Below are positions 3,474 through 19,674 of a DNA stretch of 20,420 nucleotides, piece after piece. A program made the position numbers and the translations under genes. The notes beneath the pieces were generated by a model that saw nothing but the letters and a program-made list of their open reading frames with translations, was not told the DNA's origin and made no database searches. Origin of the DNA: a virus; the IMG/VR virus record IMGVR_UViG_3300035698_027011, positions 1-20,420 of that record; one strand, written 5' to 3'. Position 1 is the first letter of the stretch, and every line of letters begins with the position of its first letter.

Positions 3474-3683
3474 TTACGCCTTAGACCCTACTGTACCCTT
3501 GCCTGTTAAAGGAACATTACACTCTGGACACATTAAATCATTACAAGGTACTCCTCTCTCATGAGTCTCTTCATGTCCACATTTCGGACAAACACAAACA
3601 TCTGTACCACCTGTGCCTTCTTTACCGGTCCCTTGTCCCTGTGCCTCATTCAATAATTCGATAACTTTACTTGCTTTGCTCAT
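3474..3683 (-). CDS. Tagged zinc-ribbon protein (putative capsid cargo)
   Basis: The 69-residue protein has the shared N-terminal tag MSKASKVIELLNE with Glu at residue 13 and Leu at 11, followed by a Gly/Thr-rich linker (residues 15-27) and a zinc ribbon. The ribbon knuckles are CPKCG (Cys32, Cys35) and CPEC (Cys52, Cys55), with two extra cysteines at 30 and 47. Cutting after Glu13 would release a free zinc ribbon. The first 22 bases at its 5' end (3663-3684) are identical to those of the next gene upstream (3871-3892). The ribosome site AGGAGG is strong. The ribbon could bind nucleic acid or protein; its target is unknown. Presence of tag and ribbon is seen directly; cargo status is inferred. 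Confidence 0.88.
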   Translation of the reverse strand: MSKASKVIELLNEAQGQGTGKEGTGGTDVCVCPKCGHEETHERGVPCNDLMCPECNVPLTGKGTVGSKA

Positions 3684-3696
3684 TTTAAATTCCTCC

Positions 3697-3891
3697 TCAC
3701 ACTGCCGCTGACTTCATTAACTTCGATAGTTCCTTAATCTCTTTCTGAAATGCATCTACTTCTTTTTTAGGCATTTGCCCTGCTAAAGTTTGTAACTTAT
3801 CCTTAAGAGATCCGAGCATACTTTTCATTTCATCATGCTCAGATTTCGTAACTTTCTCTAGTATTAACAAAACTTTACTTGCTTTGCTCAT
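3697..3891 (-). CDS. Tagged small helical protein (putative capsid cargo)
   Basis: I place the start at the ATG ending at 3891 (64 residues), because AAGGAG lies 7 bases before it. An upstream start six codons earlier would put that site inside the gene. The protein starts MSKASKVLLILEK, where Glu is at residue 12 rather than 13. The rest is almost wholly helical and charged, with a heptad-like run through KSMLGSLKDKLQTLAG and AFQKEIKELSKLMKS, so a small coiled coil or helical hairpin is likely. No enzyme motif is seen. It is the neighbour and near-repeat partner, at the DNA level, of the zinc-ribbon gene. Confidence 0.85.
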   Translation of the reverse strand: MSKASKVLLILEKVTKSEHDEMKSMLGSLKDKLQTLAGQMPKKEVDAFQKEIKELSKLMKSAAV

Positions 3892-3901
3892 TGTTGTCTC
3901 C

Positions 3902-4477
3902 TTAGACATTAATTACATACCCTCTTTTCTGTAACTCTAACGCTCCCATGTAAATATGCTTGCACACACCCGGAATTTTTAACGGATTTACAGATTTTCT
4001 CGTCTTTGTTTTTCGAGTATACGAAATAGGTTTTCTTCCCGCAGCTAAGCACCCTTCTTTTTTTAAGTACCAACTCCAACGGAACCGAAAGTCCATACAT
4101 GTACACCAGACTGCTACCGGGTGCTTAGTAATCTTTATCTGTTCCATATATTTCGTTTCAGTTGGCTTTCCCCTCCCTTTTACTTGTATAGCAATAGGAC
4201 ACTCAACAGTCTTTTCATCCGAGAAACCAACCTTATAAAAAATCATTGCCTGCTCGTATTTTTTATTATCTGCACCTGTAGATGCTAAATCAAATCTAAC
4301 CCAGTTGACTCCAGCATAAGGTTCAACTTTCCTCACTTTTACATCCCTATCCTGTTTATGCGCCCTCCCAAATAACTTAACTGAGTTGTCAAGAAGCTGT
4401 CTCAAAGTCAGTTTCGCCTTCGTCTTTGAAGGTCTCTGCTCTTCTAAAGCCATAATAATCTCCTTTGCAGTTATCAT
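3902..4477 (-). CDS. Tagged SWIM zinc-finger protein (putative capsid cargo)
   Basis: The 191-residue protein is the clearest domain among the tagged set. Residues 1-13 are MITAKEIIMALEE, a variant of the shared tag with Glu at 13 and Leu at 11. Residues 120-180 form a SWIM-type zinc finger: Cys125-x-Cys127 in VWCTCMDFRFRW, then Cys172-x-His174 in PGVCKHIYMGALEL, the CxC...CxH pattern known to bind zinc and often nucleic acid or protein. A basic insert (GRKPISYTRKTKTRKS, residues 147-162) separates the two halves. Residues 50-110 look beta-rich and hold a basic GRGKPTETK loop. SWIM proteins of this general form occur in other large phages; their function is not established. The ribosome site is AAGGGA. 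Confidence 0.88.
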   Translation of the reverse strand: MITAKEIIMALEEQRPSKTKAKLTLRQLLDNSVKLFGRAHKQDRDVKVRKVEPYAGVNWVRFDLASTGADNKKYEQAMIFYKVGFSDEKTVECPIAIQVKGRGKPTETKYMEQIKITKHPVAVWCTCMDFRFRWSWYLKKEGCLAAGRKPISYTRKTKTRKSVNPLKIPGVCKHIYMGALELQKRGYVINV

Positions 4478-4486
4478 AAGTTTCCC

Positions 4487-4729
4487 TTACTTAATATCTG
4501 TAATTACAGAACCCTTTATCTTAAACTTGAACCCCTGATTTTTCAATTCCTTTGCTATATCTTTAGCAATATCTGGAGCGATTGCAGTTAGAGATTTATC
4601 CCCATCCCACTCAAAATCATTCTCAGTAGGATGATCATCTGAACTAGTAAACTTACCTTTTAGGTATTCCTTAGGTGTTGACATACGTACTTCCGTAAAT
4701 AACCTTAAGATTTCATTTGCTCTCGACAT
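4487..4729 (-). CDS. Tagged small protein (putative capsid cargo)
   Basis: The 80-residue protein has the most typical tag of the set, MSRANEILRLFTE, with Phe11-Thr12-Glu13 giving an ideal h-x-E site. The remainder is a short polar linker (residues 14-45) and a compact domain with the pattern SLTAIAPDIAKDIAKELKNQGFKFKIKGSV, helix followed by a hairpin. I do not recognise a family. A very good AAAGGAGG site precedes the ATG. Confidence 0.87.
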   Translation of the reverse strand: MSRANEILRLFTEVRMSTPKEYLKGKFTSSDDHPTENDFEWDGDKSLTAIAPDIAKDIAKELKNQGFKFKIKGSVITDIK

Positions 4730-4787
4730 TGCAAACCTCCTTTGTAGTTATCATCAGTTTTACAACCTCTAACTTTTCAATGTATTA

Positions 4788-5012
4788 TCAAGATATCACT
4801 GTTTTCTTTAAAAGGGATAGTAACAAGAGCATATCACGTTTATATTCTTTGTTAAACATAGGCCATTTCAATAAAGTCCCAATAGCTTCCTTACGCTCTT
4901 TCTTTTCTTGATCGGACATCTGATCAATTTCCTTTTCCCAATCTTTTATAGAAGCCTCTTTAAGCGCTTTTGAACTACTGACTCGGTTTAAAATACCTTG
5001 AGCGCGTGTCAT
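4788..5012 (-). CDS. Tagged small helical protein (putative capsid cargo)
   Basis: The start is set at the ATG ending at 5012 (74 residues); the possible GTG start five codons earlier lies over the GAGGTGG ribosome site. The tag is MTRAQGIL, but the region after it diverges; the first h-x-E is Leu-Lys-Glu at about residues 17-19 (KALKE/A). The remainder is charged and helical (DQEKKERKEAIGTLLKW) and ends in a hydrophobic helix, DMLLLLSLLKK. That last stretch is short for a membrane span but could be amphipathic. Function unknown. Confidence 0.82.
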   Translation of the reverse strand: MTRAQGILNRVSSSKALKEASIKDWEKEIDQMSDQEKKERKEAIGTLLKWPMFNKEYKRDMLLLLSLLKKTVIS

Positions 5013-5023
5013 TATAGGCCACC

Positions 5024-5239
5024 TCACTTCAATTTTTTTGCCATAGCTTGCATTGTATCTACAGCATCTTTTTTGTCATCTGTATAGTAGCTCTTATCAT
5101 CATTATATTTACTTCCGTCAAACCAACGAACTACCCATTCCCCTGTACTTGCTTTCTTTTTGACAACTAAACGAACATTCCCTTTAACAATTTCATCTTT
5201 CTTTTCAAACATGTCTAGCATATCACTTGCTTTGCTCAT
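5024..5239 (-). CDS. Tagged small protein (putative capsid cargo)
   Basis: The ATG ending at 5239 is taken as the start (71 residues) over an adjacent GTG. The tag is MSKASDMLDMFEK, with Glu at 12. After it come two or three predicted strands (NVRLVVKKKA, EWVVRWFDG) and a conserved-looking YNDDKSYYTDDKKDAVDTMQAMAKKL segment that would form a strand and a C-terminal helix, a small alpha/beta domain. I know no assigned function. A 23-base stretch across its start (5223-5245) is identical to that at the next gene's start (5417-5439). Confidence 0.86.
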   Translation of the reverse strand: MSKASDMLDMFEKKDEIVKGNVRLVVKKKASTGEWVVRWFDGSKYNDDKSYYTDDKKDAVDTMQAMAKKLK

Positions 5240-5250
5240 CACAGACCCCT

Positions 5251-5433
5251 TTACATTTTCTTTATCTCGGCTATCGCCGAATCTTTCATAAGGTCCAGAA
5301 TATCATCCGGTATAGTTGTATTGTTTTTCCGGATGCTTACATATGCCTTCTTGACCTCTTTAATCATTTCTTGTTTAGAAATCTCCTTGCTCCCAGAAGC
5401 TGCCTTTTCAAGAATCTCACTTGCTTTGCTCAT
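5251..5433 (-). CDS. Tagged small helical protein (putative capsid cargo)
   Basis: The start is the ATG ending at 5433, giving 60 residues. It overlaps the stop of the upstream neck-like gene by one base (TGATG), and AGGAG lies about 8 bases before. A longer frame running 22 codons further would read inside the neighbour and is rejected. The tag is MSKASEILEKAAS; Glu is at 9 (I-L-E) but not at 13, so the putative cut site is less clear here. The rest is helical and charged, with KKAYVSIRKNN and a C-terminal helix. Function unknown. Confidence 0.84.
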   Translation of the reverse strand: MSKASEILEKAASGSKEISKQEMIKEVKKAYVSIRKNNTTIPDDILDLMKDSAIAEIKKM

Positions 5434-6125
5434 CACAGATCTCCTATTCCTTCCCACCATTTGTCTTGTTCCTGTAACTTCTCCATAGTGTTTGTCCATA
5501 ATTCATTCCCTTCTGAAACTAACTGGTCTCCATCCATTGTTATTGGTAAATCATTCAATGTAAATGCTCTCCTGCTCCTACCAAGGGCAGTCATAAACTT
5601 AGCCACAAGTAAGTCTACAAAATACCTGTCTTCAACAATACCTAAAGTTGAAAAATTAACTTCCGTTACCACCCCTGCACTATCTTCCTCTTCTGCATAG
5701 ATATGGTTGTATTGTTCTGTAACATCCATTGTGCCATCTTCGGTTACATATAAAATAGGCTTTTCATATCTCCAGGTGAAAGGTCTAGGCACCTCCAGTA
5801 TGCTATATTCATCAATTTTCTGTTTCGTCCTTTGTGATGAATAGTAATGTAAAGCAGCTACACTGGAAGTGACTACAGGAACCACACTAGAAATCCAATC
5901 TGGGATACCATAAGTCAAAGAAGCACTATAAGTATAGACACCTCCAGTGACTACTATATTCTGCTTATTAGTAAAAAATCTATACTTATTGTAAACAGAA
6001 AGTACCCTCTTAATGAGTAACCAAAATCTAGGAAGGTCTAGATTAATAGTATCCAGATCTCCCATAATAAACTCCCCTGACTCAAGAAGAGTGACTTCAA
6101 CTAACTCTGTTAAAGTAGTAGTCAT
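5433..6125 (-). CDS. Putative neck/connector virion protein
   Basis: The 230-residue untagged protein is not one I can name with certainty. It opens with a helical segment (ELVEVTLLESGEFI; NLDLPRFWLLIKRVLSVYNKY) and has a central beta part with a VTGGVYTYSASLTYGIPDWISSV stretch. Its C-terminal helical part (DRYFVDLLVAKFMTALGRSRRAF, then WTNTMEKLQEQDKWW) resembles in style the C-termini of phage head-tail connector or neck proteins. The position, after capsid genes and before tail genes, supports a neck role (T4 gp13/gp14 position). Its start has little Shine-Dalgarno signal and lies 3 bases after the stop of a micro-ORF, so it may be translated by coupling. Confidence 0.82.
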   Translation of the reverse strand: MTTTLTELVEVTLLESGEFIMGDLDTINLDLPRFWLLIKRVLSVYNKYRFFTNKQNIVVTGGVYTYSASLTYGIPDWISSVVPVVTSSVAALHYYSSQRTKQKIDEYSILEVPRPFTWRYEKPILYVTEDGTMDVTEQYNHIYAEEEDSAGVVTEVNFSTLGIVEDRYFVDLLVAKFMTALGRSRRAFTLNDLPITMDGDQLVSEGNELWTNTMEKLQEQDKWWEGIGDL

Positions 6126-6128
6126 AAT

Positions 6129-6197
6129 TTAGCCTTTTTTCATCTGGGTGAAACTTAATGTTTCGATCAAAGTGGGTATTTCATTTTCTTTACTCAT
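6129..6197 (-). CDS. Micro-ORF of 22 codons with strong ribosome site
   Basis: A short frame begins MSKENEIPTLIETLSF and ends after a basic QMKKG tail. It has a GAGGAG site with 7-base spacing, overlaps the end of the SAP-like gene by 8 bases, and stops 3 bases before the next gene's ATG. The next gene has almost no ribosome site of its own, so this frame may serve as a coupling leader. It starts with MSK but does not match the tag. Whether the peptide itself is used is unknown. Confidence 0.45.
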   Translation of the reverse strand: MSKENEIPTLIETLSFTQMKKG

Positions 6198-6606
6198 TTT
6201 GTTTCTCCTCAATAAAGCCAAATCGTTTGTACAATCTATTCAAAAGTAGTTGACGGTTTCCCCCTATTAAAAGATTCTCCCCTGAACAGACCTCTTTAAG
6301 TTGAGCGGGTGTCATTTCCAGTAACTTCTCTTTCGTATACTTTGATGAAGCTACTGTAATAATATGTTCTGCTTCCTCTTTTTTCTCTTCTTTCCCTTGA
6401 ACAATTTCTTCAATAGGTACAGGAGAGTTTACTACTCTTCTACGAAAGGTTTCATCAGTTACTTTCAATCCAAACTCCTTAATGTACACTGAAATTCTGT
6501 TGACTTGGTCTGATGTAATTGGAACTGAGGCTCCTGGCATTAATGAAATAATTGGAGCTGCTTTCTTAATAGTAACTTTACCCTTTGTGGGGTTAGTGAG
6601 TTTCAT
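6190..6606 (-). CDS. SAP/HeH-like domain protein of the head module
   Basis: The 138-residue protein has an N-terminal beta-rich part (residues 1-50: VTIKKAAPIISLMPGASVPIT), a lysine/glutamate-rich linker (about 72-82) and a C-terminal helix-extension-helix resembling a SAP motif: YTKEKLLEMTPAQLKEVC, then GNRQLLLNRLYKRFG (about 92-132). SAP-type motifs in phage proteins commonly mediate nucleic acid or protein contact. It has a strong TAGGAGG ribosome site and no tag. Its position two genes after the major capsid gene suggests a head accessory or connector part; that is inference. Confidence 0.82.
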   Translation of the reverse strand: MKLTNPTKGKVTIKKAAPIISLMPGASVPITSDQVNRISVYIKEFGLKVTDETFRRRVVNSPVPIEEIVQGKEEKKEEAEHIITVASSKYTKEKLLEMTPAQLKEVCSGENLLIGGNRQLLLNRLYKRFGFIEEKQNE

Positions 6607-6678
6607 AACTACCTCCTATTCAAGTGTTGTGATTATTGTTATGTTCCATGGATTTATTCTATCTTCACTATTGTTCTC

Positions 6679-6885
6679 TCAAAATCCCTTTAGTTGAAGA
6701 CTATCTACCATTTTCTTAGCCTTATCAAGAACACGTATACCTTCTTTGAACCCCCGTTCGTTAAAGAGTACTTCTAATCTTTTCATTGAATCAAAAACCT
6801 TTTGTTTAGCTTCTTTCTCTTTGCTACTCTTCACCTGAGGGGCTTTCTCGTCTACTATTTTTATAATATTGCTTGCCCTGCTCAT
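6679..6885 (-). CDS. Tagged small helical protein (putative capsid cargo)
   Basis: Start chosen at the ATG ending at 6885 (68 residues), since GAGGGA lies about 6 bases upstream; a TTG four codons earlier would overlap that site. The tag is MSRASNIIKIVDE, with Val11-Asp12-Glu13. The remainder is a lysine-rich helical domain (KEKEAKQKVFDSMKRLEVLF, then VLDKAKKMVDSLQLKGF), likely a helical hairpin that could bind DNA through its basic face. It is the first gene after the major capsid gene and follows the long inverted repeat at 6917-6974. Confidence 0.86.
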   Translation of the reverse strand: MSRASNIIKIVDEKAPQVKSSKEKEAKQKVFDSMKRLEVLFNERGFKEGIRVLDKAKKMVDSLQLKGF

Positions 6886-6916
6886 TTTGTCCCTCAATCT
6901 TTACCCAGATAAAATA

Positions 6917-7031: not shown

Positions 7032-8166
7032 CTAGGACCAGTTGGTAATTTCAATCCTAGTAATGAAATTAGGAACTAACGCTTCAATTGCCGCCCAAAC
7101 TGCAGCCGCTTTTTGATTCAATAGCGGATTAGTTCCGGTAGGCAGGGCTGTAGTCACCACCAAAGGCATGTAAGGTGCATAACACATTGCTGCCTCAAAA
7201 GGACTTGACCCTTTGTACAAGCACAGCACATAATTAGCACTCAACACACTAGACGCCGGAATTCTAACTACAGTAATACCATCAAGAATCCCATAGATAT
7301 GTGGGCCAAGAAGAGTACCATCAGAGATCTTCTCAAACCCAGGTAGTGTTCCGATGATAGAACAAGCATTACGCCCAGCAATCATGACGCTGATCGTACC
7401 ACGGCCGGCATTACCCAGCATGTTCCCTTCTGCTTTCTGAATGGCATCCTTGAAGCTTTGCTTATGTTCAAAATAGGACACCCCAGTGGGACTAGCGTTA
7501 CTCCACTGATAGTTACTAACATAGTTCTGACTGGCAATGTAAACCAGAGTGTTCATAAGCTCAGCATTAATAGCAGAGATAAGATCTGATGCCACTTCAT
7601 CTTCTGCAATCATACCAAATCTACGCCTCAAAGCATACGAACTTTCAAGACCTATCGTATCCTTGAGTGCATAAACATGCGCGAAAACACTCTTAGTGTC
7701 CAAAGACATAATCATCTTCGGAATGTCATCCGCCCCTTCAAGATCCTGATGGTAAGAGCAATAGATAACTAACCCAATACCAGGATCCGGAGCACCATCA
7801 AGTTCAATTACGATGGCCCCAGTGGTGTAGTTAATAGTTCCCCACATCCGATAGCCATGAATTTCTCCACTCCCATTATCTGAACCTGTTCTAACATCAG
7901 AAACACCTACAGTCAACTTCACAGAAACTGTATTAGGCCGAATAGGCAGATAAGTTAGGGTCGAAGAATAAGTCAAGAGCGTTGCTCCAGTGGAATCAGC
8001 AACGGTTGTATCCACAGTTTCATCAGTGATATACCCACTTGCAAAATTTCTCGGTTGCACATCCGCTGCAGCCCGTGGGTCAGCAATGGCCTGACCAGAG
8101 GTAACATTTCCACGAGTTGTCTGTGCTATTAGTTGTTTGTAATAAATGGTCCCATTTTCTTCCTCA
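7032..8166 (-). CDS. Major capsid protein, exon 2 (gp23-like)
   Basis: This is the second exon of the major capsid gene; joined to exon 1 (9624-9928) it gives a 479-residue protein. It does not start at the GTG at 8060: the frame stays open back to 8166 and its first residues EEENGTIYYKQL continue the gp23 motif begun in exon 1. Later landmarks match T4 gp23 in order: SYALRRRFGMIAEDEVASDL with a following ELMNTLVYIAS helix, an ISVMIAGRNACSIIGTLPGF segment (T4 has a similar IIASRNVVNVLASV), and LYKGSSPFEAAMCYAPYMPL (T4 YKGP...IYYAPYVAL). These are characteristic of the HK97-fold shell subunit of T4-type phages. Without splicing this part would lack a start and the shell would not form. Confidence 0.92.
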
Positions 8167-9623
8167 CATTACGTTCAATAAGGTTCGTTACTCCTTACCC
8201 GCGACTTTACTCGCAGCTCATGCTTTCACATGAGATCAGACTATATCATCAACCTTTATAGGTTATCCTCCGCTTCCACCCACTTGGGTGTACTCTACTC
8301 ACACGAAATTTCCACTCTCTTATCTCGTGCTTTCGATAGTCGTTGAACTTTCCTGTTGTATAAGTCTATTACTAACAAACTCAAACCCACAACCAATAAA
8401 GTCGGCTATCTCTCTAATTTGCATCTTAAATTCTGTATACATAATTTGTATCCACTCAATAGCTTGCTCATTGTCACAGAATCCATACTTTCTAGCAAAA
8501 GTATTCCTATGAGATACAACTCTTTTTTCATTTATAGATGGGTCTAACTGCCAAGGTAATCTTCCTTCCTTCGCAGCAATCTGAACAGGATGCCTACCCT
8601 GTCTTCCCAACTCCCTCATAGCTCGACTTTTATTCTTATTCGCCTTAGATGAACTTAACTGCTTCCCATTACGAGTGATATCACCTACGACTTCTGCACT
8701 ACCTATCAATTTTTTATACAACAGGCTTAGCTGCTGATTGTCCATTGTTATATCTTTGGGATTATTACTTACTTCTTCAGGGATTACTATAGCAGACCAT
8801 TCTAAACTCACTGAGCCTCTGCAAACTCGATATATTACACCCCTTTGAGCAAAAGCTTTAGCAGAATCTCGAAGTCCTCCCTCGCTAATCTGCCTCTCTT
8901 CACAGAACCTACCTAATTCGCCTCTAGAAACATAAAATATATCTTCTGAAGGGGAAACAACCAAAAAACTATACTTAGAATTAGGGTTAGCTCCACCAAC
9001 CCTTCTACTACCATACATACTGTTATTAACTCCACTACGGTCCCCAAAGTTTAAATGAATTTTTCTTTCTTTAGAAAACTTACTACGTTTAATTTTAGAC
9101 ACAACTGAATGAGGTCTCGAAGCAGCAATTCTCCATTTCTCTTTAGTCTCCTCCGAAGGGTTCAATTGTCCTGTACCCCCATCATTATAGTTAATTAATG
9201 GTCCCAAGTTATTAGGATCATTAAATCTTCCTATAGATGTGATAACTTCTACTTCTAAATCATATGCTTGCTGCTCACCCAAATGATCAAAAACCTTTTT
9301 TATTATCGGATCTCCTCCTGACTTTACAATCTTACAAATCTTATTTGATTTAAAATCATTAGAAGAGGGATTCTTAACACAATTTAAATGTTCATACATC
9401 CGAGAATACTTACCCTTACCAACATAAAAAGGCTCAAAAGCAAACTCATATATTAGTGTAAACTTCTTACTGACATATAAATAACAACCGGGCTTTCTAG
9501 GATCCAGGTATATGTAAACATAGTAAATTTTTCTTTCATTCGTAAGTACCCAAAGTTTTAGAACTTTCCAGCAATTCAAAGGATTTTCACTGCAACGTTA
9601 CCGCCACAGGCCACTGATTTCCA
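8167..9623 (-). mobile_element. Group IA intron in the major capsid gene
   Basis: The 1457-base intron interrupts the capsid gene in an Ile codon. I can trace its core on the minus strand: P1 pairs exon CCAT with intron GTGG around a U.G wobble (about 9611-9629); P3 is ATCCTTTG (9577-9584) with CGGAGGAT (8265-8272); P5 is a 6-base hairpin at 9552-9567; P7 is GACTAT (8336-8341) with ATAGTC (8239-8244); P8 is a hairpin at 8251-8264; P7.2 is at 8277-8290; P9 is CTCATG/CATGAG at 8217-8234. P7.2 and a likely P7.1 between P7 and P3 are hallmarks of subgroup IA. The intron ends in G (omega-G), and the exon before it ends in U, as required. Removal restores VQPI-EEEN-GTIY, equal in length to T4 gp23 VQPM-NSPT-GQVF. 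Confidence 0.9.
8320..9579 (-). CDS. GIY-YIG homing endonuclease in the capsid intron
   Basis: The frame codes up to 419 residues of a site-specific endonuclease that would spread the intron. The GIY-YIG domain is at about residues 18-135: YYVYIY (GIY equivalent), FYVGKGKYSRMYEH (YIG equivalent with the catalytic Arg60), an acidic LEVEVITSIGR strand holding the likely catalytic Glu, and LINYNDGGTG. NUMOD3-like DNA-binding repeats follow (GVNNSMYG at about 183-190, then GGANPNSK), and a C-terminal helix-turn-helix-like part (QIREIADFIGCGFEFVSNRL). The start is uncertain: the only upstream option, TTG at 9579, lies inside intron pairing P3 and lacks a ribosome site, and the next ATG (residue 61) would remove the catalytic motif. 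The 3' end overlaps the P7 strand, so the gene and ribozyme core share bases. Confidence 0.88.
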   Translation of the reverse strand: MNCWKVLKLWVLTNERKIYYVYIYLDPRKPGCYLYVSKKFTLIYEFAFEPFYVGKGKYSRMYEHLNCVKNPSSNDFKSNKICKIVKSGGDPIIKKVFDHLGEQQAYDLEVEVITSIGRFNDPNNLGPLINYNDGGTGQLNPSEETKEKWRIAASRPHSVVSKIKRSKFSKERKIHLNFGDRSGVNNSMYGSRRVGGANPNSKYSFLVVSPSEDIFYVSRGELGRFCEERQISEGGLRDSAKAFAQRGVIYRVCRGSVSLEWSAIVIPEEVSNNPKDITMDNQQLSLLYKKLIGSAEVVGDITRNGKQLSSSKANKNKSRAMRELGRQGRHPVQIAAKEGRLPWQLDPSINEKRVVSHRNTFARKYGFCDNEQAIEWIQIMYTEFKMQIREIADFIGCGFEFVSNRLIQQESSTTIESTR

Positions 9624-9928
9624 ATGGGTTGCACCGAGGCACAAGCAGCAATCGGGGAGGCACCGAAGGCGACGCTGATTACATCAAAAGCCACATTCGG
9701 AATTTTCCCTAATTGAGCCAAGGTTCCATCATCTTCACAGATAGCCTTATAAATTTCAAAGGCCTCAAGTTGTTTCCCCAGTACATAATAATCGTATGGC
9801 TGTATGGGTCGCAACTTCGCTAAAGGACTCTTCTCCAGGATTTCCATCTGAGGTTTATATTTCTTCATATAACCTTCTGCATCCCGATCAACTCTCGCTC
9901 CTAGTTTTTGTTCATTTATGCTAATCAT
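9624..9928 (-). CDS. Major capsid protein, exon 1 (gp23-like)
   Basis: The first exon codes 101 residues plus two bases of an Ile codon. It starts at an ATG with a strong TAGGAGG site. The exon ends with GTLAQLGKIP...IAACASVQPI, which parallels T4 gp23 TQIGPAVM...LIAFDICGVQPM. If not spliced, translation runs 12 further codons into the intron (GNQWPVAVTLQ) and stops at 9587, giving a useless 113-residue fragment. The first 60 or so residues are helical and polar and may be the delta segment removed by the prohead protease in T4-type heads. Several h-x-E sites are present and I cannot choose among them. Confidence 0.9.
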
Positions 9929-9992: not shown

Positions 9993-10925
9993 CTACTTAG
10001 ACAAATTCTCCATCAATCTCTGACCTCTTCCAGAGAGAGACTTTGTTTCTTCCGGAGTTTCTTCTTTCTCTTCTGACTCATCAACAACCTTTGTATACCT
10101 CTCTGATACATCAAGACCATACTCAGTCCTAATACCATTAACAAGAGCCAAAGCTTCAGACTTGTTCATACGGACAAGTAGAGACTTAGCAATATCCTCA
10201 GACACCTTTAACACATCCATAACCTCTTTGGTGTCCTCTTTGAGTCTGGTTTCCTTAATGTTATCAACCATACCCTCTATCATGTCAAAGGCCTCAGAGA
10301 TTTTTTCTACTGAACCGAGTCCTGCATATCCGTCCAAAAGATCCAAAGCTTCAGTAAGATCGTCAAAAGAACCAAGCTCTTGCATCTTCTCTACATAGAC
10401 CTTAGTCTTTTCAAATGCTTCGGCAATATCTTCAACAGTGCCAACCTCTATATACTGGTCAATAGATTCCTTAAGTTCAGAAACAACTTTCGGAGAACCA
10501 AATACTGTGTACTTCTCCAAAAGATCCAGGGCCTCAGAGATTTGATCAACAGTACCAATCTCCTTCATCTTCTCACCTAACTGTTCGGCCCTGTCCAATA
10601 CCTTACTGATTTCATCAGAAGAACCTAAACCCTCAAACCCCTCTAAAGCAGTTTTTGCTTGAGTCAATTCTTCCTTCAACGCAGTCAGGGTATCATTTGC
10701 TTCTTTGTACTTACCCGCCACTTCCGTAAACTCGGAAATAGAGCCCACTTTCTTAAATTCTGCAAGAGTAGACGAAATCTCTTCTACCCTCGCATTCGCT
10801 ACAGCAAGCTGCCCTCTCAAATCCTCATTGTCCACAAGGGCCTTATCCAAAGAATCCTTGATTTGATTCTTATCCTTAGCCATATCCTCTACAACTCGTT
10901 TTAGATCACTATTCTCACCGGGCAT
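9993..10925 (-). CDS. Nested scaffold protein from an internal start
   Basis: An in-frame ATG at codon 230 of the protease-scaffold gene (MPGENSDLKR) is preceded by AAGGAGGA at 10933-10940 with normal spacing. It would give a 310-residue scaffold lacking the protease domain. The Shine-Dalgarno match is as strong as that of any gene in the window, which is unlikely to be chance in coding sequence at the exact domain border. This mirrors lambda, where scaffold Nu3 is made from an internal start in the protease gene C. The core scaffold would be in excess over protease, as assembly needs. Translation from this site is inferred. Confidence 0.75.
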   Translation of the reverse strand: MPGENSDLKRVVEDMAKDKNQIKDSLDKALVDNEDLRGQLAVANARVEEISSTLAEFKKVGSISEFTEVAGKYKEANDTLTALKEELTQAKTALEGFEGLGSSDEISKVLDRAEQLGEKMKEIGTVDQISEALDLLEKYTVFGSPKVVSELKESIDQYIEVGTVEDIAEAFEKTKVYVEKMQELGSFDDLTEALDLLDGYAGLGSVEKISEAFDMIEGMVDNIKETRLKEDTKEVMDVLKVSEDIAKSLLVRMNKSEALALVNGIRTEYGLDVSERYTKVVDESEEKEETPEETKSLSGRGQRLMENLSK

Positions 10926-11612
10926 ATCTTTGTCCTCCTTAATTATTTTCTCAGACTCCTCAAGCTTATGTTTCCTTTCTTCTTCAAGAATCTGATTAAT
11001 GTTTTTGCCAGACTCAGCAACAAGAGAAGGGGTTGCTCCTTTTACTCCTCCACGCCGAGTAACATCAAAGCCTTCGTACCTGAAAGTGTCAGGATCAACT
11101 ATATCGGCTTCGTGTTTCTTACCCTTAAACTTACCAAACGCTCTAGATGAAACATCTAACGTAACACCACCATTAAGATATCCAAATAATTCCCTACCAA
11201 CAGTGGTGTCAAGAATAGCCATCTCACCTTTACCTAAAAAAGATTCCTTCTTCGACTCATTCTCAGGAAACCATAGTTTAGTAATCCTATGAGAAACCTT
11301 TCCTTCTCTTAAAGCTTTATCATCTAACTCCTGATCATGTCCAATGGTACCAATAACCCTACCTTGTGTATGAGCCTCAGCGTTTTCATTTATCACCTTT
11401 TCCCATAATTGTCTACTGTACCAACGACCATTATCACTCTTACCCTCAACAACAAAGAAAGGGCCTCGAAAATATCCTAAGACTCCAACCCCATCAGACG
11501 TTACTGTTCCTTTTGCAGCTTCTACAATCTCCCATTCAGAACTCTCAGGTTCAAAAGGAACACTCTCCGTTAGGGGCACTAACCCTAACTCTTTTGCCTT
11601 TTCAATATTCAT
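9993..11612 (-). CDS. Prohead protease (gp21-like) fused to scaffold
   Basis: The 539-residue protein joins two functions that T4 keeps in separate genes 21 and 22. Residues 1-200 are a gp21-type serine protease: GTIGHD with His92, and GVTLDVSSRAFG with Ser155/156, the catalytic His and Ser regions of that family, plus a YSRQLWEKV start typical of it. Residues 230-539 are a charged, helical scaffold with Gly-centred repeats. Between them, SLVAES at 196-201 has the h-x-E cleavage pattern and could be a self-processing site. The start has a GGAGGAGG site and shares ATGA with the stop of the upstream gene. The protease acts inside the prohead on the scaffold, capsid protein and probably the tagged proteins. 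A strong internal start (see 9993-10925) suggests free scaffold is also made. Confidence 0.9.
   Translation of the reverse strand: MNIEKAKELGLVPLTESVPFEPESSEWEIVEAAKGTVTSDGVGVLGYFRGPFFVVEGKSDNGRWYSRQLWEKVINENAEAHTQGRVIGTIGHDQELDDKALREGKVSHRITKLWFPENESKKESFLGKGEMAILDTTVGRELFGYLNGGVTLDVSSRAFGKFKGKKHEADIVDPDTFRYEGFDVTRRGGVKGATPSLVAESGKNINQILEEERKHKLEESEKIIKEDKDMPGENSDLKRVVEDMAKDKNQIKDSLDKALVDNEDLRGQLAVANARVEEISSTLAEFKKVGSISEFTEVAGKYKEANDTLTALKEELTQAKTALEGFEGLGSSDEISKVLDRAEQLGEKMKEIGTVDQISEALDLLEKYTVFGSPKVVSELKESIDQYIEVGTVEDIAEAFEKTKVYVEKMQELGSFDDLTEALDLLDGYAGLGSVEKISEAFDMIEGMVDNIKETRLKEDTKEVMDVLKVSEDIAKSLLVRMNKSEALALVNGIRTEYGLDVSERYTKVVDESEEKEETPEETKSLSGRGQRLMENLSK
10263..10748 (-). repeat. Degenerate tandem repeats in the scaffold
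   Basis: Seven copies of an hG[ST]-x-(D/E)-x-I-x-E-A-h-D-h-h-E type unit start near residues 289, 329, 352, 371, 390, 413 and 432 of the fused protein. From residue 329 onward the spacing is 19 or 23 residues; the longer form has an extra four residues such as KMQE. The pattern is a short helix between Gly-Ser/Thr caps, so the scaffold is probably a rod of short repeated helices. Similarity is stronger in protein than in DNA. Confidence 0.75.
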
Positions 11613-12313
11613 TTCTCTCCTCCTCCTAAATCATTGAGTACTGACTTAAACACGGTACTCAAAAAATATGAATCATCTAAATTCTTACCCTGAGAATAAT
11701 TAGAGTAAAGGTTAGCAACCATTTTTAATGGTTTGGCTGAAACTTCTACTAATGACTTATGTATCTCTTTCACTTCTACTAATCTCAATAAAAGTTCCAA
11801 CTCATTATCATCTAAAGGATAAACTACATCTTCATACAATTTGGTTTCAAGACTATGTAATATCTCCAGAGCATAATCAGAAAATATTTCAAACTCCACT
11901 TGCTCTACCAAAGGCATATAATAACCCTGTTCAATATACACATGCGTTCTAATAGAAGAAACAGCTTTCAAAACTAAATCTTTAACAAGCTCGAGAGACT
12001 CTTGTGTAGGTCTTGACCTCGGAAAATATCTTAAAGCTAGAAACCTTCCCATAGAACGATGGAGACGTTTTCCAGCTACAGAACGATGGAAGCGTTTAAT
12101 TCCTAACATGTAGGTCCAACGATTTTTTCTCCAATTAGATTTAGTGATACTCGATCTTCTAAAATCTTTTAGCCTACGAACAGTTTTCTTCCTTCTTTTA
12201 ACAAAAAGTTCAAACAAGTCAGCAGGGATCTCGTCTGCACTCTTTTCAATGAGATCTAACTCCCCCATTTCAGAAAGAAAACTATACCGATCTATTTCTT
12301 CTTTGAATTTCAC
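11609..12313 (-). CDS. Basic protein of unknown role next to the protease
   Basis: The 234-residue protein starts at a GTG (12313) with AAGGGGA upstream and ends overlapping the protease start (ATGA). Its N-terminal half is strongly basic (VKRRKKTVRRLKDFRRSS, residues 38-55; then FHRSVAGKRLHRSMGRF), while residues 110-234 are helical and acidic. The N-terminus MKFKEEIDRYSFLSEMGE includes an L-S-E that could be a prohead cleavage site. A basic head-interior protein between portal and protease recalls the place of T4 gp67/gp68 prohead core proteins, but it is longer and I see no firm homology. It could bind packaged DNA or scaffold. A 27-base duplicated unit is present (see 12053-12106). Confidence 0.82.
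   Translation of the reverse strand: MKFKEEIDRYSFLSEMGELDLIEKSADEIPADLFELFVKRRKKTVRRLKDFRRSSITKSNWRKNRWTYMLGIKRFHRSVAGKRLHRSMGRFLALRYFPRSRPTQESLELVKDLVLKAVSSIRTHVYIEQGYYMPLVEQVEFEIFSDYALEILHSLETKLYEDVVYPLDDNELELLLRLVEVKEIHKSLVEVSAKPLKMVANLYSNYSQGKNLDDSYFLSTVFKSVLNDLGGGEK
12053..12106 (-). repeat. Short in-gene duplication, 27-base unit
   Basis: Two adjacent 27-base units starting with AGAACGATGGA (at 12053 and 12080 on the plus strand) share their first 17-18 bases with small differences. In protein this gives RFHRSVAGK followed by RLHRSMGRF, a ninefold-residue basic repeat within the unknown head-module gene. Confidence 0.5.
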
Positions 12314-12685: not shown

Positions 12686-13276
12686 TCATCCGTTTTTGAT
12701 TCTATCTGAAAACTTCTTATTAGTATCGACCTTTTTCCCCATGGCCTTTGCTCGATCAAGAACAGCCTTATCCACATCAGACATCTGATCTTTCTTCACA
12801 ACAACAGGAAGTTTTCTTTTCTTACCCCCAACGGTAACAACCATTTTATTCAACGCCTCTTGAAAGGACTCATCAACTTCCCCAGCCGCTAACAAAACAG
12901 TCAAAGTGCTCTTATTCATCCAAGACAGATCAGTCAAATCAATAAAATCCTGCCCATTAACATCAAAAGTAGGACAGTCTACTGTGCTCAAGTCAACTGA
13001 AATCTGTTCATCATCTTCACTTACAACAGAAGCAATCGGACCTTCCTCTGGATTCACATAGAACCAGATTGTTACTTCATCTCCTTCAATGTCCCAAAAA
13101 GTAACTAAAGGACCTTCTGCTAAGTCTATATACGCAGAAACCTGAATGCTTTCGTACCCAAAAGAATTAAGTTTTGCTCTAAAAGCATCCTCAATTGCTT
13201 TAGTAGTTAAACCCCCATAGCTTGTCAAAGGAACAAACTCTGTTAACTTCTTCACTAACTCGTCAGCTCGGCTCAT
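12686..13276 (-). CDS. Tagged protein, 196 residues (putative capsid cargo)
   Basis: Two ATGs lie in tandem; the second (13276) has better spacing to GGAGG. The tag is MSRADELVKKLTE with Leu11-Thr12-Glu13. The payload is one of the largest of the set: an acidic, beta-rich domain at about residues 20-130 (YESIQVSAYIDL, VTFWDIEGDEVTIWFYVNPEEGP, then a helical ALNKMVVTVGG), followed by a basic, lysine-rich C-terminal tail (KKRKLPVVVKKD; KAMGKKVDTNKKFSDRIKNG). The basic tail could contact DNA. I see no known enzyme motif. Confidence 0.86.
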   Translation of the reverse strand: MSRADELVKKLTEFVPLTSYGGLTTKAIEDAFRAKLNSFGYESIQVSAYIDLAEGPLVTFWDIEGDEVTIWFYVNPEEGPIASVVSEDDEQISVDLSTVDCPTFDVNGQDFIDLTDLSWMNKSTLTVLLAAGEVDESFQEALNKMVVTVGGKKRKLPVVVKKDQMSDVDKAVLDRAKAMGKKVDTNKKFSDRIKNG

Positions 13277-13320
13277 CATATGCCTCCAAAACCCCTGATT
13301 AAAATTTACTTAAGTTGCAC

Positions 13321-13557
13321 TCATCTGTCCCAAAATAACTCATCAAAAACTTTATCCGGATCTAAAAAACCAACAACCACGCCATTAATACTTATATCAA
13401 CATGAGCCCCCAGTAATTCATCCCTTGCGTAATCTTTACTCACCTGATTGAGATCTTTATAATCCTTCATCTTAGAACCTTTTGGAGAAATACGAAAAGA
13501 CACCCTAACTTTTCTACCTTCTCCTACCCTCTTCAAAAGCTCTGCTGCCTTGCCCAT
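13321..13557 (-). CDS. Tagged small protein (putative capsid cargo)
   Basis: The 78-residue protein starts MGKAAELLKRVGE, a tag variant with Val11-Gly12-Glu13. The payload has strands KVRVSFRISPKG and HVDISINGVVVGFLD with a helix DYKDLNQVSKDYARDEL between, a small alpha/beta domain. It begins 3 bases after the neighbouring stop with an AAGGGG site, so it is part of the same translational run. No family recognised. Confidence 0.84.
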   Translation of the reverse strand: MGKAAELLKRVGEGRKVRVSFRISPKGSKMKDYKDLNQVSKDYARDELLGAHVDISINGVVVGFLDPDKVFDELFWDR

Positions 13558-13560
13558 TTT

Positions 13561-13860
13561 TTACCCCTTTTTCTTTAGTTTTATAACTGGAAAGGACCAA
13601 CCCCTAGCAGGATTTTCATTCCAACCTACTGCATACCCATTCATTAACTCAACCCAATAAAAAACAAATTTCTCTTTTCCGGGCCAAGCCTTAGGAAAAT
13701 TATTTTCTAGACCCCCATGTTCTTTTTTAACAACTACATCCCTAAACTTATAGGCTCTAGTGTCATCATACTCCCCTGCCCAAAATTCCTTAGGCATGGC
13801 ATCTTTAAGAGTTTTCCTTTCTTCGGAAAACAAACTGATGACTTCTTCGGCTTTAATCAT
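13561..13860 (-). CDS. Tagged small protein (putative capsid cargo)
   Basis: The 99-residue protein starts MIKAEEVISLFSE, with Phe11-Ser12-Glu13. Its start overlaps the upstream stop by ATGA, so the pair is probably coupled. The payload is aromatic-rich and probably beta: FWAGEYDDTRAYKFRDVVV, then KFVFYWVELMNGYAVGWNENPARGWSFPVIKL. It has six tryptophans or more per hundred residues in that part, which is high for the window. No family recognised. Confidence 0.85.
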   Translation of the reverse strand: MIKAEEVISLFSEERKTLKDAMPKEFWAGEYDDTRAYKFRDVVVKKEHGGLENNFPKAWPGKEKFVFYWVELMNGYAVGWNENPARGWSFPVIKLKKKG

Positions 13861-14093
13861 TTCATATCACCTTTCTTCACAATGAACAAATCCTTTGTCT
13901 CCATACTCTTAACAACTATATGAGTCTCAGGCTTTTCTTCATCAGTATCAACAAGTATATACTCCCCTGGAGGAATATCAACCTTCTTTTGGTTTACAAA
14001 AGTTAAACCTTTGATTTTCTTACTCAGCTTAAGTTTCTTGGGTGCCTCAGATAAAGTGCCCAAAATTTCTAGTATACCACTTGCCCTGCTCAT
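13857..14093 (-). CDS. Tagged small protein (putative capsid cargo)
   Basis: The 78-residue protein starts MSRASGILEILGTLSEAPKK. Here the h-x-E is three residues later than usual (Leu14-Ser15-Glu16, followed by Ala, as at T4 sites). The payload looks like a small beta barrel: LTFVNQKKVDIPPGEYILVDTD, then THIVVKSMETKDLFIVKKG. The strands and spacing resemble SH3-like folds, but that is a guess. Ribosome site AGGAGGAG is strong. It is the first tagged gene after the portal and the 86-codon gene. Confidence 0.86.
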   Translation of the reverse strand: MSRASGILEILGTLSEAPKKLKLSKKIKGLTFVNQKKVDIPPGEYILVDTDEEKPETHIVVKSMETKDLFIVKKGDMK

Positions 14094-14104
14094 TTTCTCT
14101 CCTC

Positions 14105-14365
14105 CTAATCTAATTGTCTAACAAAACTAAGTGCATGTTCCCTTAAAGTATCATCAACTATCCCCGAAAGAGCTCCCAAAGCTGCAAGTTTACCAAGAGC
14201 CTTCCACTTATCATTATCAGAAGACTCAGCACTTCGTAAGACTCTATTGCCCTGAATAATAAGTCTGAGGACTCTTTGATCTATTCTACTTGATTGCCTC
14301 TTTGCAGCTTCTAAGATTTTTAGGTCTCCCTCTTTTTCTCGACCCTCCCTCTTTTTTCTAGCCAT
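14105..14365 (-). CDS. Basic helical protein after the portal
   Basis: The 86-residue untagged protein starts 3 bases after the portal stop with a GAGGAGG site. It is strongly basic at the N-terminus (MARKKREGREKEGDLK) and helical throughout (RVLRLIIQGNRVLRSA; LGKLAALGALSGIVDDTL). Its place right after the portal matches T4 gene 67, a small prohead core protein, but T4 gp67 is acidic at its end and I see no direct similarity. Prohead core part or portal-associated factor are the main options. Confidence 0.78.
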   Translation of the reverse strand: MARKKREGREKEGDLKILEAAKRQSSRIDQRVLRLIIQGNRVLRSAESSDNDKWKALGKLAALGALSGIVDDTLREHALSFVRQLD

Positions 14366-14367
14366 CT

Positions 14368-15885
14368 TTACAAAGCCTCCTCTTCTTCCTCGTCCCCTTC
14401 AGGTTCTTCTGGCTCTTTTCCACTATCGTCGCCTTTAACCTTAATAAAGTTGAACTCATTACCAAATATGCTCATCTGCTTATACATCCAAGCTCTGAAT
14501 TTCTCAACATCGACAACATCCTTCAACTTTTCATCCTCTAACAACTCACCAACTAACCTTTGAACATTCCCTATAATATTAATAGAAGCATCAAAGATTT
14601 CGACCTTGTCAAGTTCTCCAACCTCCACCAAAACATTCCTAAAGTCTACTAGTATATCTTTAGGTACAACCGTAAAAGACTTATTGATTAAATGAGACAA
14701 AGCTATCTGCTTTAATCCCATAGCAATAGAAGTCTGAATTGATTTTAATTGTCTAACATACCTACCATACCTTTTCAGTAAATCCCCTCTACTTTCGTTG
14801 CTCTCAAAAAGTAACTCATAAGGATAACCTATAGAAGTACATATTACTTTCCTCGTATCTTCTACTCTATCCCCTAAAGCTTCAATTGATCTATCTTCCT
14901 TCGCATCAGATAATGACTGCAAATCTCCTTTGTCTCCAAAAATAGGTAGGACCCTAATCGACCCAGCAACACTTGCAACATCAGATACTGCAAAATCATT
15001 TGTGTTTCTATCTAAACCTATTTTTTTATTCAAATACTTTTCATACTTCTTAGCTGCTGCAAACCCATCCTTCGCAGGGGTTCCTGGTGGCATTCTAACC
15101 CCCACAAGATTCCCTTTCAAAATATCATTTAATTTCTTTGTGGGAATCAACATCTCTATGAGCATTAATTCCTTTATTTTAGACAAAACGCCATAGAACA
15201 CTGACCTACCAATTCTTACATATGAAGGAAGTTGGCCCCCTCCAAAGTCTTCAGGCATAGTAGGTGGAGTCTTTTTCTTACCAAACTCCTCTTTTACATT
15301 TATTCTTAATCTATTCTTGTTAATTGAAAAATGAGCGTATTCATAGGGCCTTTTAGCCACAAGATCTCTCGATTCCTGAGCAAGAAAAAGCAGGGGTATT
15401 CCCCTTCTGTAATACGCAACTACTGCAGCTTGATCGACATCGTCAACAATATCAACTAGACCTATGCCTGGCTCAATCACATTCCTCAGAATATGCTCCC
15501 CTTGTCTTAAAAGGTCTAGTATAAAATCTCCTATGATCTGATCAAAATCGAACTTCTCTTGTAGAATTCTTAACTCAGCATCGATATCTTTTCTAGGTGA
15601 ACTTAACTCCACAATATCACCAGTAGTAATATCTGGAGTCAATGCATCATCTGCAATGCTTCTAGCAAGAGCATCAACAAGATAAAAACCTTTTATCTTA
15701 TCCATCTCTCGAAGAAACAATTTACGAGAATTAACAACCTCCGAGTAGACTGAAAACCAGGCTTGTGCAACACCTGTGTCATTCACTAAATCTCTAAGAC
15801 TCCAAGTACCCTCCTGATCCCCTTCTACTTTCTTTCCCCCTCCAAGTCCTGGGAACCTACTTAACTTTGAAAAAAGTCCAGACAT
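14368..15885 (-). CDS. Portal protein (gp20-like)
   Basis: The 505-residue protein forms the ring at the special vertex through which DNA enters and to which the tail attaches. Support: size typical of T4 gp20-type portals (about 500), position between large terminase and protease, and the internal pattern. Residues about 60-180 hold the clip/wing start (KIKGFYLVDALARSIADDAL, then a GDFILDLLRQGEHILRNV helix). The stretch YVRIGRSVFYGVLSKIKELMLIEMLI followed by IPTKKLNDI resembles the gp20 core, and a long helical part at about 350-400 (VICTSIGYPYELLF, then GRYVRQLKSIQTSIAMGLKQIALSHLI) fits the stem/crown. The C-terminus is very acidic. Ribosome site AAGGAG. Confident family call by context and pattern. 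Confidence 0.88.
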   Translation of the reverse strand: MSGLFSKLSRFPGLGGGKKVEGDQEGTWSLRDLVNDTGVAQAWFSVYSEVVNSRKLFLREMDKIKGFYLVDALARSIADDALTPDITTGDIVELSSPRKDIDAELRILQEKFDFDQIIGDFILDLLRQGEHILRNVIEPGIGLVDIVDDVDQAAVVAYYRRGIPLLFLAQESRDLVAKRPYEYAHFSINKNRLRINVKEEFGKKKTPPTMPEDFGGGQLPSYVRIGRSVFYGVLSKIKELMLIEMLIPTKKLNDILKGNLVGVRMPPGTPAKDGFAAAKKYEKYLNKKIGLDRNTNDFAVSDVASVAGSIRVLPIFGDKGDLQSLSDAKEDRSIEALGDRVEDTRKVICTSIGYPYELLFESNESRGDLLKRYGRYVRQLKSIQTSIAMGLKQIALSHLINKSFTVVPKDILVDFRNVLVEVGELDKVEIFDASINIIGNVQRLVGELLEDEKLKDVVDVEKFRAWMYKQMSIFGNEFNFIKVKGDDSGKEPEEPEGDEEEEEAL

Positions 15886-15907
15886 ATTTCTCCTTTTGAA
15901 TGACGAA

Positions 15908-17785
15908 CTAAACTACATGAACCTCATAAGCCCTGGCCCCAAAAATCTGTTCATATTCATTCAATGCTGACTCTTGTTCTATTATCCTAAAAAATTCATC
16001 GTGAGCATCCATTGCCCCATAATATTTTTCTATGTTTAGAAATGCTGAATACACTGAACCACAAACAGCATCTGAAGCGTCCTTGCTCCCATCCTCCTGC
16101 TTAAGTAAGTTCTCTTCATCGTCTACTTTCTGAGGGTGGTCAATCTTTTCCCCTAAGTCAAGTAAATTCTTTAACTCACTTCTTAGAATTGGATGCTGTA
16201 CCCCACTATACCTACCTTCCAAAACTACAGATTTGAAATAATCATAACGTGACCTAGGGTGGTCCACAGACATTATACTAGCATCAAAATGTAACAACCA
16301 AAGATCCTGCTTTAAATTCTCAGATTGATAACCGTCAGCAGTTATCTTAACTATTGGTACACCTCTATCAGATAAATCTTTAATCAAATGTTTGATCTTA
16401 TAAATCGGCACATCTTGTCCCGGTTTATTTTTAATTAACATAAGGAAATCTGTAGAAAATATAGGCTCCTTCGATTTTATTGTCTTCAAGGTGTTAGAGT
16501 CTCTTCTCTCAACAGTAACAAAACTTCTTATTCCTGACATAGCCAAACCTGCTCTGTCCCCTCTAAGTCCTAAATCAATATGAATAAACCTTGGGCATCT
16601 AATAGAAACAATATCTCGAAGATCAATATACTGAATCAAAGATTCCTCCTGATTGTAAAAATCTGTCACTACAACATGTTTACTAACAGGATTAGGCCTA
16701 ATCAATGCTTCCTCTATCTTTTCTACTGACGGAAAAAACTTATGTATAGATGAAGTACTTTCCCCAGCTACATCCTGAAGGGATTTGTATATGTCATCTG
16801 AGAAATCCTGATAGTGTTCAACTGGTATATCCAAAATTCGTGCGTCCTCTAATCCTATAATCTGTTTTGCGTGTTCAACTATAAAAGGGTCTCTTAAATT
16901 GTCTCCAATAAAAACCTTGAAAGTTTTCCCACCATATTCCCATGTTTTTATATCCCAGATGGCATGATCAAAAACTCGAACCTTTGTATCATTCCTAACT
17001 TTCTTTATATGAGACTCAAGAAAAGCAGTTTCTTTCGACTTAGAGGAATCGAGCCACATCCTACCAGGTATTCTATTCAAAAATCTAGATTTTGCTCTCC
17101 TTTTCACATTAGTATAATTATTGTAAGCTTGCTGATTCCAAGAGGTCTGAAAGTTTAGCTCACTAAGAACACCTGCAACTATAGCTTGACCTAAGGTGTG
17201 TGTAAACCTTGAGCCCTCCCTAAAATCTATATTTTTCTGTAAAAGTGTTTTCCCACTATACTTCTTATTACTATATGGGGTTAGTATACTCCTAAAGTAT
17301 GGAGAATCATTCATCCATTCATACAACTCATCAAACAGAATATTTTTAGCTGAAGCCAAAGTATTGGAGTATAAAGCAAAAAGTAACTTTGTAGCCTTGG
17401 TTAAGTTATAAAACAACTGAGGACTTTCTAAATAGCTAAGTCTAGCTGCATCGTAAAGTAACCCAATCTTAGATATGGTTGACTTACCTCCACCAATTGA
17501 TCCTGTGACCACTATCTCGTTATAAGGAGAATAAAAAGGATTAGGATATATTTCCTTTAGTGCTTCTCGCCAAATAGGATAAATTATAGACTTATCTGTA
17601 CGTGTGTTCCACAGAGCTTCCTTAAGATAGGTACTATTATCAATAAACTCCGTGATCGTTGGAGGTGTCTCATGATAACCAGACATTCGAGCTAAAGAAT
17701 CCATTGTGGCTTTGACTCCATGAGCCGAAACCATCTGATTCAATAATTGATCTGAAGGATCTATTGTTTGTTGAGTTTGTGCCAT
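15908..17785 (-). CDS. Large terminase subunit (gp17-like ATPase/nuclease)
   Basis: The 625-residue protein pumps DNA into the prohead and cuts it. Walker A is GSIGGGKS at residues 95-102, and the Walker B region is AIVAGVLSELNF with Glu209 at the expected acidic position. The C-terminal nuclease has IHIDLGLRGDRAGLAM with Asp404, a second acidic strand (VPIVKITADGYQS) and the late KDASDAVCGSVYSAF motif near residue 575, all typical of terminase RNase H-fold nucleases. The sequence is of the long type seen in large phages. It begins 3 bases after the stop of the preceding small gene, with only a weak GAGG site. No small terminase subunit is visible in the window. Confidence 0.93.
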   Translation of the reverse strand: MAQTQQTIDPSDQLLNQMVSAHGVKATMDSLARMSGYHETPPTITEFIDNSTYLKEALWNTRTDKSIIYPIWREALKEIYPNPFYSPYNEIVVTGSIGGGKSTISKIGLLYDAARLSYLESPQLFYNLTKATKLLFALYSNTLASAKNILFDELYEWMNDSPYFRSILTPYSNKKYSGKTLLQKNIDFREGSRFTHTLGQAIVAGVLSELNFQTSWNQQAYNNYTNVKRRAKSRFLNRIPGRMWLDSSKSKETAFLESHIKKVRNDTKVRVFDHAIWDIKTWEYGGKTFKVFIGDNLRDPFIVEHAKQIIGLEDARILDIPVEHYQDFSDDIYKSLQDVAGESTSSIHKFFPSVEKIEEALIRPNPVSKHVVVTDFYNQEESLIQYIDLRDIVSIRCPRFIHIDLGLRGDRAGLAMSGIRSFVTVERRDSNTLKTIKSKEPIFSTDFLMLIKNKPGQDVPIYKIKHLIKDLSDRGVPIVKITADGYQSENLKQDLWLLHFDASIMSVDHPRSRYDYFKSVVLEGRYSGVQHPILRSELKNLLDLGEKIDHPQKVDDEENLLKQEDGSKDASDAVCGSVYSAFLNIEKYYGAMDAHDEFFRIIEQESALNEYEQIFGARAYEVHVV

Positions 17786-17788
17786 CTA

Positions 17789-17959
17789 CTACTTAGCCTC
17801 AATCGTCACTTTAAACTTTGTTTTCATATCAACAAGTTCCGGAAATCTAACCAACTTAAACAAAATATTCAACCCAGAGGAATCAGTGTATCTTGGATCA
17901 AATCCCTTTAAGATAATCTCATTACCTTCCCCCTGAATATTTATTAGCTTTAACCTCAC
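17789..17959 (-). CDS. Small beta-rich ORF, possibly the shifted payload of a tagged gene
   Basis: A 56-codon frame from GTG (17959) reads VRLKLINIQGEGNEII, then KGFDPRYTDSSGLNILFKLVRFPELV and ends KFKVTIEAK just before the terminase. It looks like real protein and occupies a gap that otherwise has no gene. Its GTG has AGGAG only 3 bases away, which is too close. It lies in the +1 frame relative to the overlapping tagged mini-ORF (17922-17993), which has the good start. A single-base frame change would fuse tag and payload. Confidence 0.5.
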   Translation of the reverse strand: MRLKLINIQGEGNEIILKGFDPRYTDSSGLNILFKLVRFPELVDMKTKFKVTIEAK

Positions 17960-17993
17960 TAACTCCTACCAGTAATGCTTTTGCTCGGCTCAT
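17922..17993 (-). CDS. Tagged mini-ORF of 23 codons
   Basis: The frame begins MSRAKALLVGVSE with Val11-Ser12-Glu13, a perfect tag, after a strong AAGGAGG site, but stops after only 23 residues. Twelve codons in, the +1 frame opens into a 56-codon payload-like ORF. So this is either a free leader peptide, the first half of a gene joined by ribosomal frameshifting, or a gene broken by one base. I cannot tell sequencing error from real change. Confidence 0.6.
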   Translation of the reverse strand: MSRAKALLVGVSEVKANKYSGGR

Positions 17994-18004
17994 TTTTTAC
18001 CTCC

Positions 18005-18274: not shown

Positions 18275-18300
18275 TTTCTGATACCCCCTAAATAATTTGT

Positions 18301-18735: not shown

Positions 18736-18747
18736 TTTTAAACCTCC

Positions 18748-19335: not shown

Positions 19336-19345
19336 CTCAAACTCC

Positions 19346-19666: not shown

Positions 19667-19674
19667 AACCAATC

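Follow-up and report, generated by a model that had tools for sequence, protein, structure and literature searches.

In bacteriophage lambda, the scaffold Nu3 is encoded in the 3' part of the protease gene C and begins at an internal in-frame start, and in herpesviruses the nested genes UL26 and UL26.5 give a protease-scaffold and an excess of scaffold as co-terminal products. Both C and Nu3 are essential in lambda, where C is an S49 peptidase (PMC10695390), and in Mu (I/Z) and the Mu-like phage PaMx73 (gene 27) a scaffold start lies in frame within the protease gene, behind a Shine-Dalgarno (SD) sequence (PMC4378225). In T4, proheads hold about 580 gp22 and about 55 gp21 (PMC9958956); gp21 cleaves after L/I-x-E, and an internal start at its Met45 yields a short protease, gp21s, with no scaffold (PMC9026906).

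Gene layout and identity of the two halves

The window, as the whole analysed stretch of 20,420 nucleotides from IMG/VR virus record IMGVR_UViG_3300035698_027011 is called here, carries on its minus strand a putative prohead protease gene with a second start inside it. The features relevant to this gene are as follows:

9993..11612 (-): full ORF, candidate prohead protease-scaffold fusion, 539 aa; PHROG_207 head maturation protease, E = 1.2e-19
10926..11612 (-): protease part, residues 1-229, comprising a predicted S77/gp21-type domain (about 40-205) and a linker; from profile, fold and alignment
10933..10940 (-): inner Shine-Dalgarno sequence AAGGAGGA, spacer 7 nt
9993..10925 (-): nested putative scaffold ORF, 310 aa, N-terminus MPGENSDLK; stand-alone homologues in Vibrio phages and YerA41
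11613..11626 (-): outer ribosome-binding site AGGAGGAGGA, equal in strength to the inner site (-12.1)
11609..12313 (-): upstream gene, 234 aa, overlapping the protease start by 4 nt

The ORF is flanked by the 234-aa gene and the major capsid gene, within a gene order of terminase, portal, protease/scaffold and capsid, the terminase and portal being named through the same order in relatives. The arrangement is that of a nested protease/scaffold pair: the scaffold ORF shares both the frame and the stop codon of the protease gene and has its own start and ribosome-binding site.

The first half was described at the outset as a gp21-type protease, and this assignment holds. PF03420 matches 10 of 13 relatives (best 4.2e-13), the match in the window itself being sub-threshold (E = 0.0013, 18.7 bits against a cut-off of 27 bits). 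T4 gp21 (5jbl) is the sole significant PDB match of an AlphaFold model, taking the top three Foldseek places (E = 8e-7, TMt 0.72); the model is of moderate confidence overall (pLDDT 61) and reaches 70-87 across residues 41-180. Additionally, the sequence profile matches 5jbl_A at E = 0.0036, and S49 is absent from the Pfam matches of the window protein, the predicted fold being that of gp21 instead. On profile and model, the first half is supported as a gp21-type (S77) prohead protease. The protease profile match stops near codon 201 of 539 (codon 207 when counted in the stop-to-stop frame). His92 and Ser155 are invariant across the protease alignment (A3). At the next position, which aligns with the motif serine of T4 gp21 (VASRG), half of the clade has Ser and the other half Thr (window residues 155-156); judging from this alignment, the nucleophile may be shifted relative to T4 gp21.

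The second half is helical, with repeats of the LG-x-x-E-E-I type and a basic, conserved C-terminal end. L/I-x-E motifs exceed the expectation from composition in all 13 scaffolds tested, by up to about twofold; the copy in the window holds 13 such sites, and IKE at residues 225-227 adjoins the junction. The scaffold domain of the preliminary description survives as a scaffold-type, all-helical second half; homology to T4 gp22-type proteins was sought and gave no match. Likewise, no scaffold PHROG was matched by this half, and in profile comparison neither were the core proteins of OLIVR5 and SCTP-2. Matches of the window protein to PHROG tape-measure proteins were rejected as coiled-coil similarity. 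In the fused relatives examined, no other scaffold candidate lies between the protease and capsid genes.

Several further observations concern the surroundings of the gene. An Arg/Lys-rich stretch of the 11609-12313 product resembles, by eye, the N-terminal extension fused to the protease of Vibrio phage 1.031, and this upstream product is possibly a core protein. The gp23-type capsid gene (7032-9928, minus strand) is interrupted, with an N-terminal exon from 9928 to about 9620 and a C-terminal exon from about 8165 to 7032; the interruption contains a group I intron core (Rfam RF00028, 8386-8217, E = 1e-5, under the gathering score) and a LEM-3-like GIY-YIG ORF (8320-9579).

Elsewhere in the window (3474-6897 and 12686-19672, minus strand), a common leader, M-[ST]-[KR]-A-x-x-[IL]-L, stands at the N-terminus of sixteen small proteins that are otherwise unlike one another, and in most of them an L/I/F-x-E-like site comes after it; in shuffled sequence no such protein would be expected. 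Their genes start, for example, at 3683, 4477, 4729, 5239, 6885, 13276 and 13557, and further at 13860, 14093, 18274, 18573, 19335 and 19666. The leaders resemble the capsid-targeting sequences of T4 that gp21 cuts, and by analogy the sixteen may represent an extensive repertoire of proteins that are packaged and then ejected. Five relatives (L007, L009, L010, L035 and L067) have similar leaders close to their head genes.

The junction start in the window and its relatives

In the window, AAGGAGGA at 10940-10933 precedes the ATG at 10925-10923, codon 230 of 539. The placement of this site between the protease and scaffold parts, as first described, is exact in its coordinates, and in the AlphaFold model M230 falls inside a low-confidence break (residues 225-235) lying between the protease part and the helices of the scaffold. 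Among nine in-frame ATGs the inner one has the strongest SD (dG -12.1, equal to the outer start; the next reaches -6.7), and it also tops all 30 ATGs in any frame of the gene. When the codons are shuffled synonymously with the protein held fixed, however, 21% of codon choices equal the strength of the inner site (p = 0.21); the window alone is only suggestive, because Lys, Glu and Asp codons easily spell a ribosome-binding site.

Relatives were drawn from annotated phages and IMG/VR; in the viral-contig searches a single-protein query gave no match and alignment queries succeeded. They are 26-47% identical to the window over the protease part. Among non-redundant genes with at least 150 codons past the protease domain, 36 had an ATG in frame within the junction interval, RHph_TM2_3B being a near-duplicate of TM30 among them. 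In 30 of these 36 the strongest SD belongs to the junction ATG, an outcome that choosing the best ATG within the interval slightly favours, and all 30 fall among the 33 genes whose second half matches the scaffold profile (30/33), where by our own arithmetic about 6 would be expected if all in-frame ATGs were equivalent. The median dG is -7.2 at junction sites versus -1.3 for the 204 other in-frame ATGs of the same genes (p = 2e-14, a value that overstates independence, the genes being related, though the clade is divergent). An initial round with 27 genes had given the same outcome.

Between the protease and the junction ATG the linker is about 9 to 75 codons long and cannot be aligned, yet the start and its SD persist; four close relatives differ by indels in the linker but have AAGGAGGAT and ATGGCT unchanged. 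One gene (L054) lacks a junction ATG and has instead a GTG behind a GAGGA SD, and in most genes the inner SD is stronger than the outer. RNA folding predicts an open inner start region for the majority of genes (median 6th percentile); composition-matched shuffles cut this signal to p = 0.02, and since A-rich composition explains most of it, openness serves only as supporting evidence.

Several genes depart from this pattern. In L034, neither the inner nor the outer start has an SD (locus median -0.6), and the junction ATG is kept in an open RNA region; since the head genes of this locus mostly lack an SD, it is read as a phage of an SD-poor host, which probably initiates without one. The junction SD is weak in L033 and L031, and the junction ATG of L052 ranks fourth. 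The long ORFs of SP-15, LIS04 and phiLo continue into different second halves, those of SP-15 and LIS04 not being recognisably homologous to the scaffold; in these two fused genes no inner start is convincing, and that of phiLo ranks second.

Current annotation records the fusion as a single product: the records of TM30, IME392 and Ab1-TPeters each carry one CDS. In the homologous fused gene of TM30 (L001) the inner ATG, which is unannotated, is codon 207 of the annotated CDS; in IME392 it is codon 204. In Rhizobium phage RHph_TM2_3B (L005, 1941-3396), a frameshift in the protease domain splits the annotated gene, leaving the scaffold start and the remaining frame intact; mutation and sequencing error are both possible. 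The search of genome contigs gave one truncated contig, QMWS01000041.1 (L035, labelled as a Thermoprotei archaeon MAG), which carries a protease gene closely related to that of L010 together with small genes resembling those with capsid-targeting sequences, stops just past the protease domain and is probably of phage origin and binned with the archaeon in error.

Three Vibrio phages (1.031, 150E35-1 and Va2) provide a natural comparison. In each, stops at the protease/scaffold junction make the scaffold a separate ORF, which matches the scaffold profile at E = 4e-52, 6e-42 and 2e-25, respectively, and in 1.031 starts at the aligned Met behind AGGAG. In the protease tree (midpoint rooting) the three lie inside the fused clade with support of 100/94; splitting is therefore derived, and the existence of a separate scaffold gene in these nested lineages indicates that the scaffold can function as a protein in its own right. 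A homologous scaffold is encoded separately in YerA41 as well (E = 2e-20). In the more distant T4-type phages OLIVR5, PA5oct, S-CRM01 and SCTP-2, protease and next product are separate genes, the latter with no homology to the scaffold detectable by the scaffold profile. The split Vibrio phages also have a long N-terminal protease extension (L003 4062-5480, L036 1580-3010, L037 1583-3037); given the likeness of the 1.031 extension to the upstream gene of the window, fission at one end of the gene goes together with fusion at its other end.

The putative nested start is shared by about 30 related phages, among them isolates on Rhizobium (such as RHph_TM30), on E. coli (such as IME392 and EP_H11) and on Acinetobacter. 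Its retention across the clade upholds the in-frame start first described, the comparison of relatives excluding chance, and disposes of the accompanying suggestion of a lineage hybrid peculiar to one phage.

Proposed expression of the gene and alternative readings

Gene anatomy, the predicted gp21-type fold, the clade-wide inner start and natural splitting at the same point are directly supported. The reading that best fits the sequences, with a probability of roughly 0.88, is that the junction start yields two unequal co-terminal products, a protease-scaffold and an excess of free scaffold. Start usage, stoichiometry, scaffold function and self-cleavage we infer as follows. A single mRNA would give two co-terminal proteins, initiation at 11612 producing the 539-aa protease-scaffold and independent initiation at 10925 the 310-aa scaffold without protease. 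A fusion made alone would be 1:1, placing a gp22:gp21 ratio like that of T4 out of reach, while an inner start at least as strong as the outer would permit scaffold excess. The excess free scaffold would form the prohead core, and the identical scaffold half would carry the fusion into it, so that the protease is both dosed and targeted; once the gp23-type shell encoded by the next gene has closed, the protease would cleave L/I-x-E sites, releasing itself near the junction, degrading the scaffold and trimming head proteins.

Were the full-length fusion alone translated, free scaffold could still arise by proteolysis in the linker, in the manner of P2 gpO, with the SD and ATG a by-product of Lys, Glu and Asp codons. 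The shuffling result in the window by itself, the processing of T4 gp21 at its C-terminus and the L/I-x-E-like motifs around the junction (IKE at residues 225-227 and the LVE-type motifs ending many protease domains) are all compatible with this. A by-product of codon usage, however, would not explain why the junction start and SD are kept across divergent linkers or why the scaffold of the split Vibrio phages starts at this very point, and a 1:1 fusion would deliver far more protease than T4 needs, which makes exclusive proteolysis quite improbable. That the inner start was once the start of a separate gene, the fusion being an artefact or a decaying split gene and the start its relic, draws on the two-gene state of OLIVR5, PA5oct, S-CRM01 and SCTP-2, but fusion is the rule across a clade of some 30 rows within which the split state is derived, the SD and start are held in place where the linker is not, and decay would be expected in most members; a relic is accordingly very improbable.

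The inner start might also be used to make another core protein, the scaffold coming from a different gene. Such a role would accord with the lack of any gp22-type sequence homology in the searches, which yielded only weak coiled-coil similarity to tail proteins. Against it, the position between the protease and a gp23-type capsid gene parallels T4 21-22-23, the second half is predicted to be all-helical, L/I-x-E motifs are enriched in the scaffolds, and the fused relatives have no other candidate between protease and capsid gene; a core protein other than the scaffold is judged unlikely. The two-product reading is preferred to each of these.

Comparison with known systems

A nested scaffold start in a gp21-type protease gene is strongly supported at the sequence level. 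No description of such nesting in a gp21-type (S77) gene was found in the open-access literature, where the Mu-like precedents and T4 gp21s were found; with nesting itself known from Mu, lambda and herpesviruses, the S77 version of a known arrangement appears to be new. A broad phage group, including cultivable members on Rhizobium, E. coli and Acinetobacter, would thereby gain an essential-looking, unannotated gene product, and the locus would offer a handle on how gp21-type proteases are targeted and dosed, with the split Vibrio phages as natural controls.

With less assurance, though on balance favoured, a wider reading holds that scaffold expression inside the gp21-type protease gene is clade-wide, that the shared tail doses and targets the protease, that the arrangement is convergent with those of lambda, Mu and herpesviruses, and that some members were re-split by stops before the inner start. 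This suggests that different capsid lineages converge on scaffold-in-protease nesting as a means of fixing the protease:scaffold ratio and of bringing in the protease.

The label lambda-like, applied in the preliminary description, is apt for the nested in-frame start and otherwise an analogy only, Mu I/Z and UL26/UL26.5 being alike in this respect. Lambda C/Nu3 shows the same nesting, but in an S49 rather than an S77/gp21-type protease and in another capsid lineage. Mu I/Z and PaMx73 gene 27 share a nested scaffold behind an SD, theirs belonging to siphophage/Mu heads; the Mu-type protease is not known to be of the gp21 type. Herpesvirus UL26/UL26.5 differs in that UL26.5 has its own transcript, the virus is eukaryotic and the protease is of the Ser-His-His type. 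T4 21-22-23 shares the gp21-type fold, the order protease-core-gp23 and the logic of L/I-x-E cleavage, and differs in keeping genes 21 and 22 separate; the earlier statement that T4 uses two genes is correct for the T4-type relatives and needs the qualification that gp21 itself has an internal start, at Met45.
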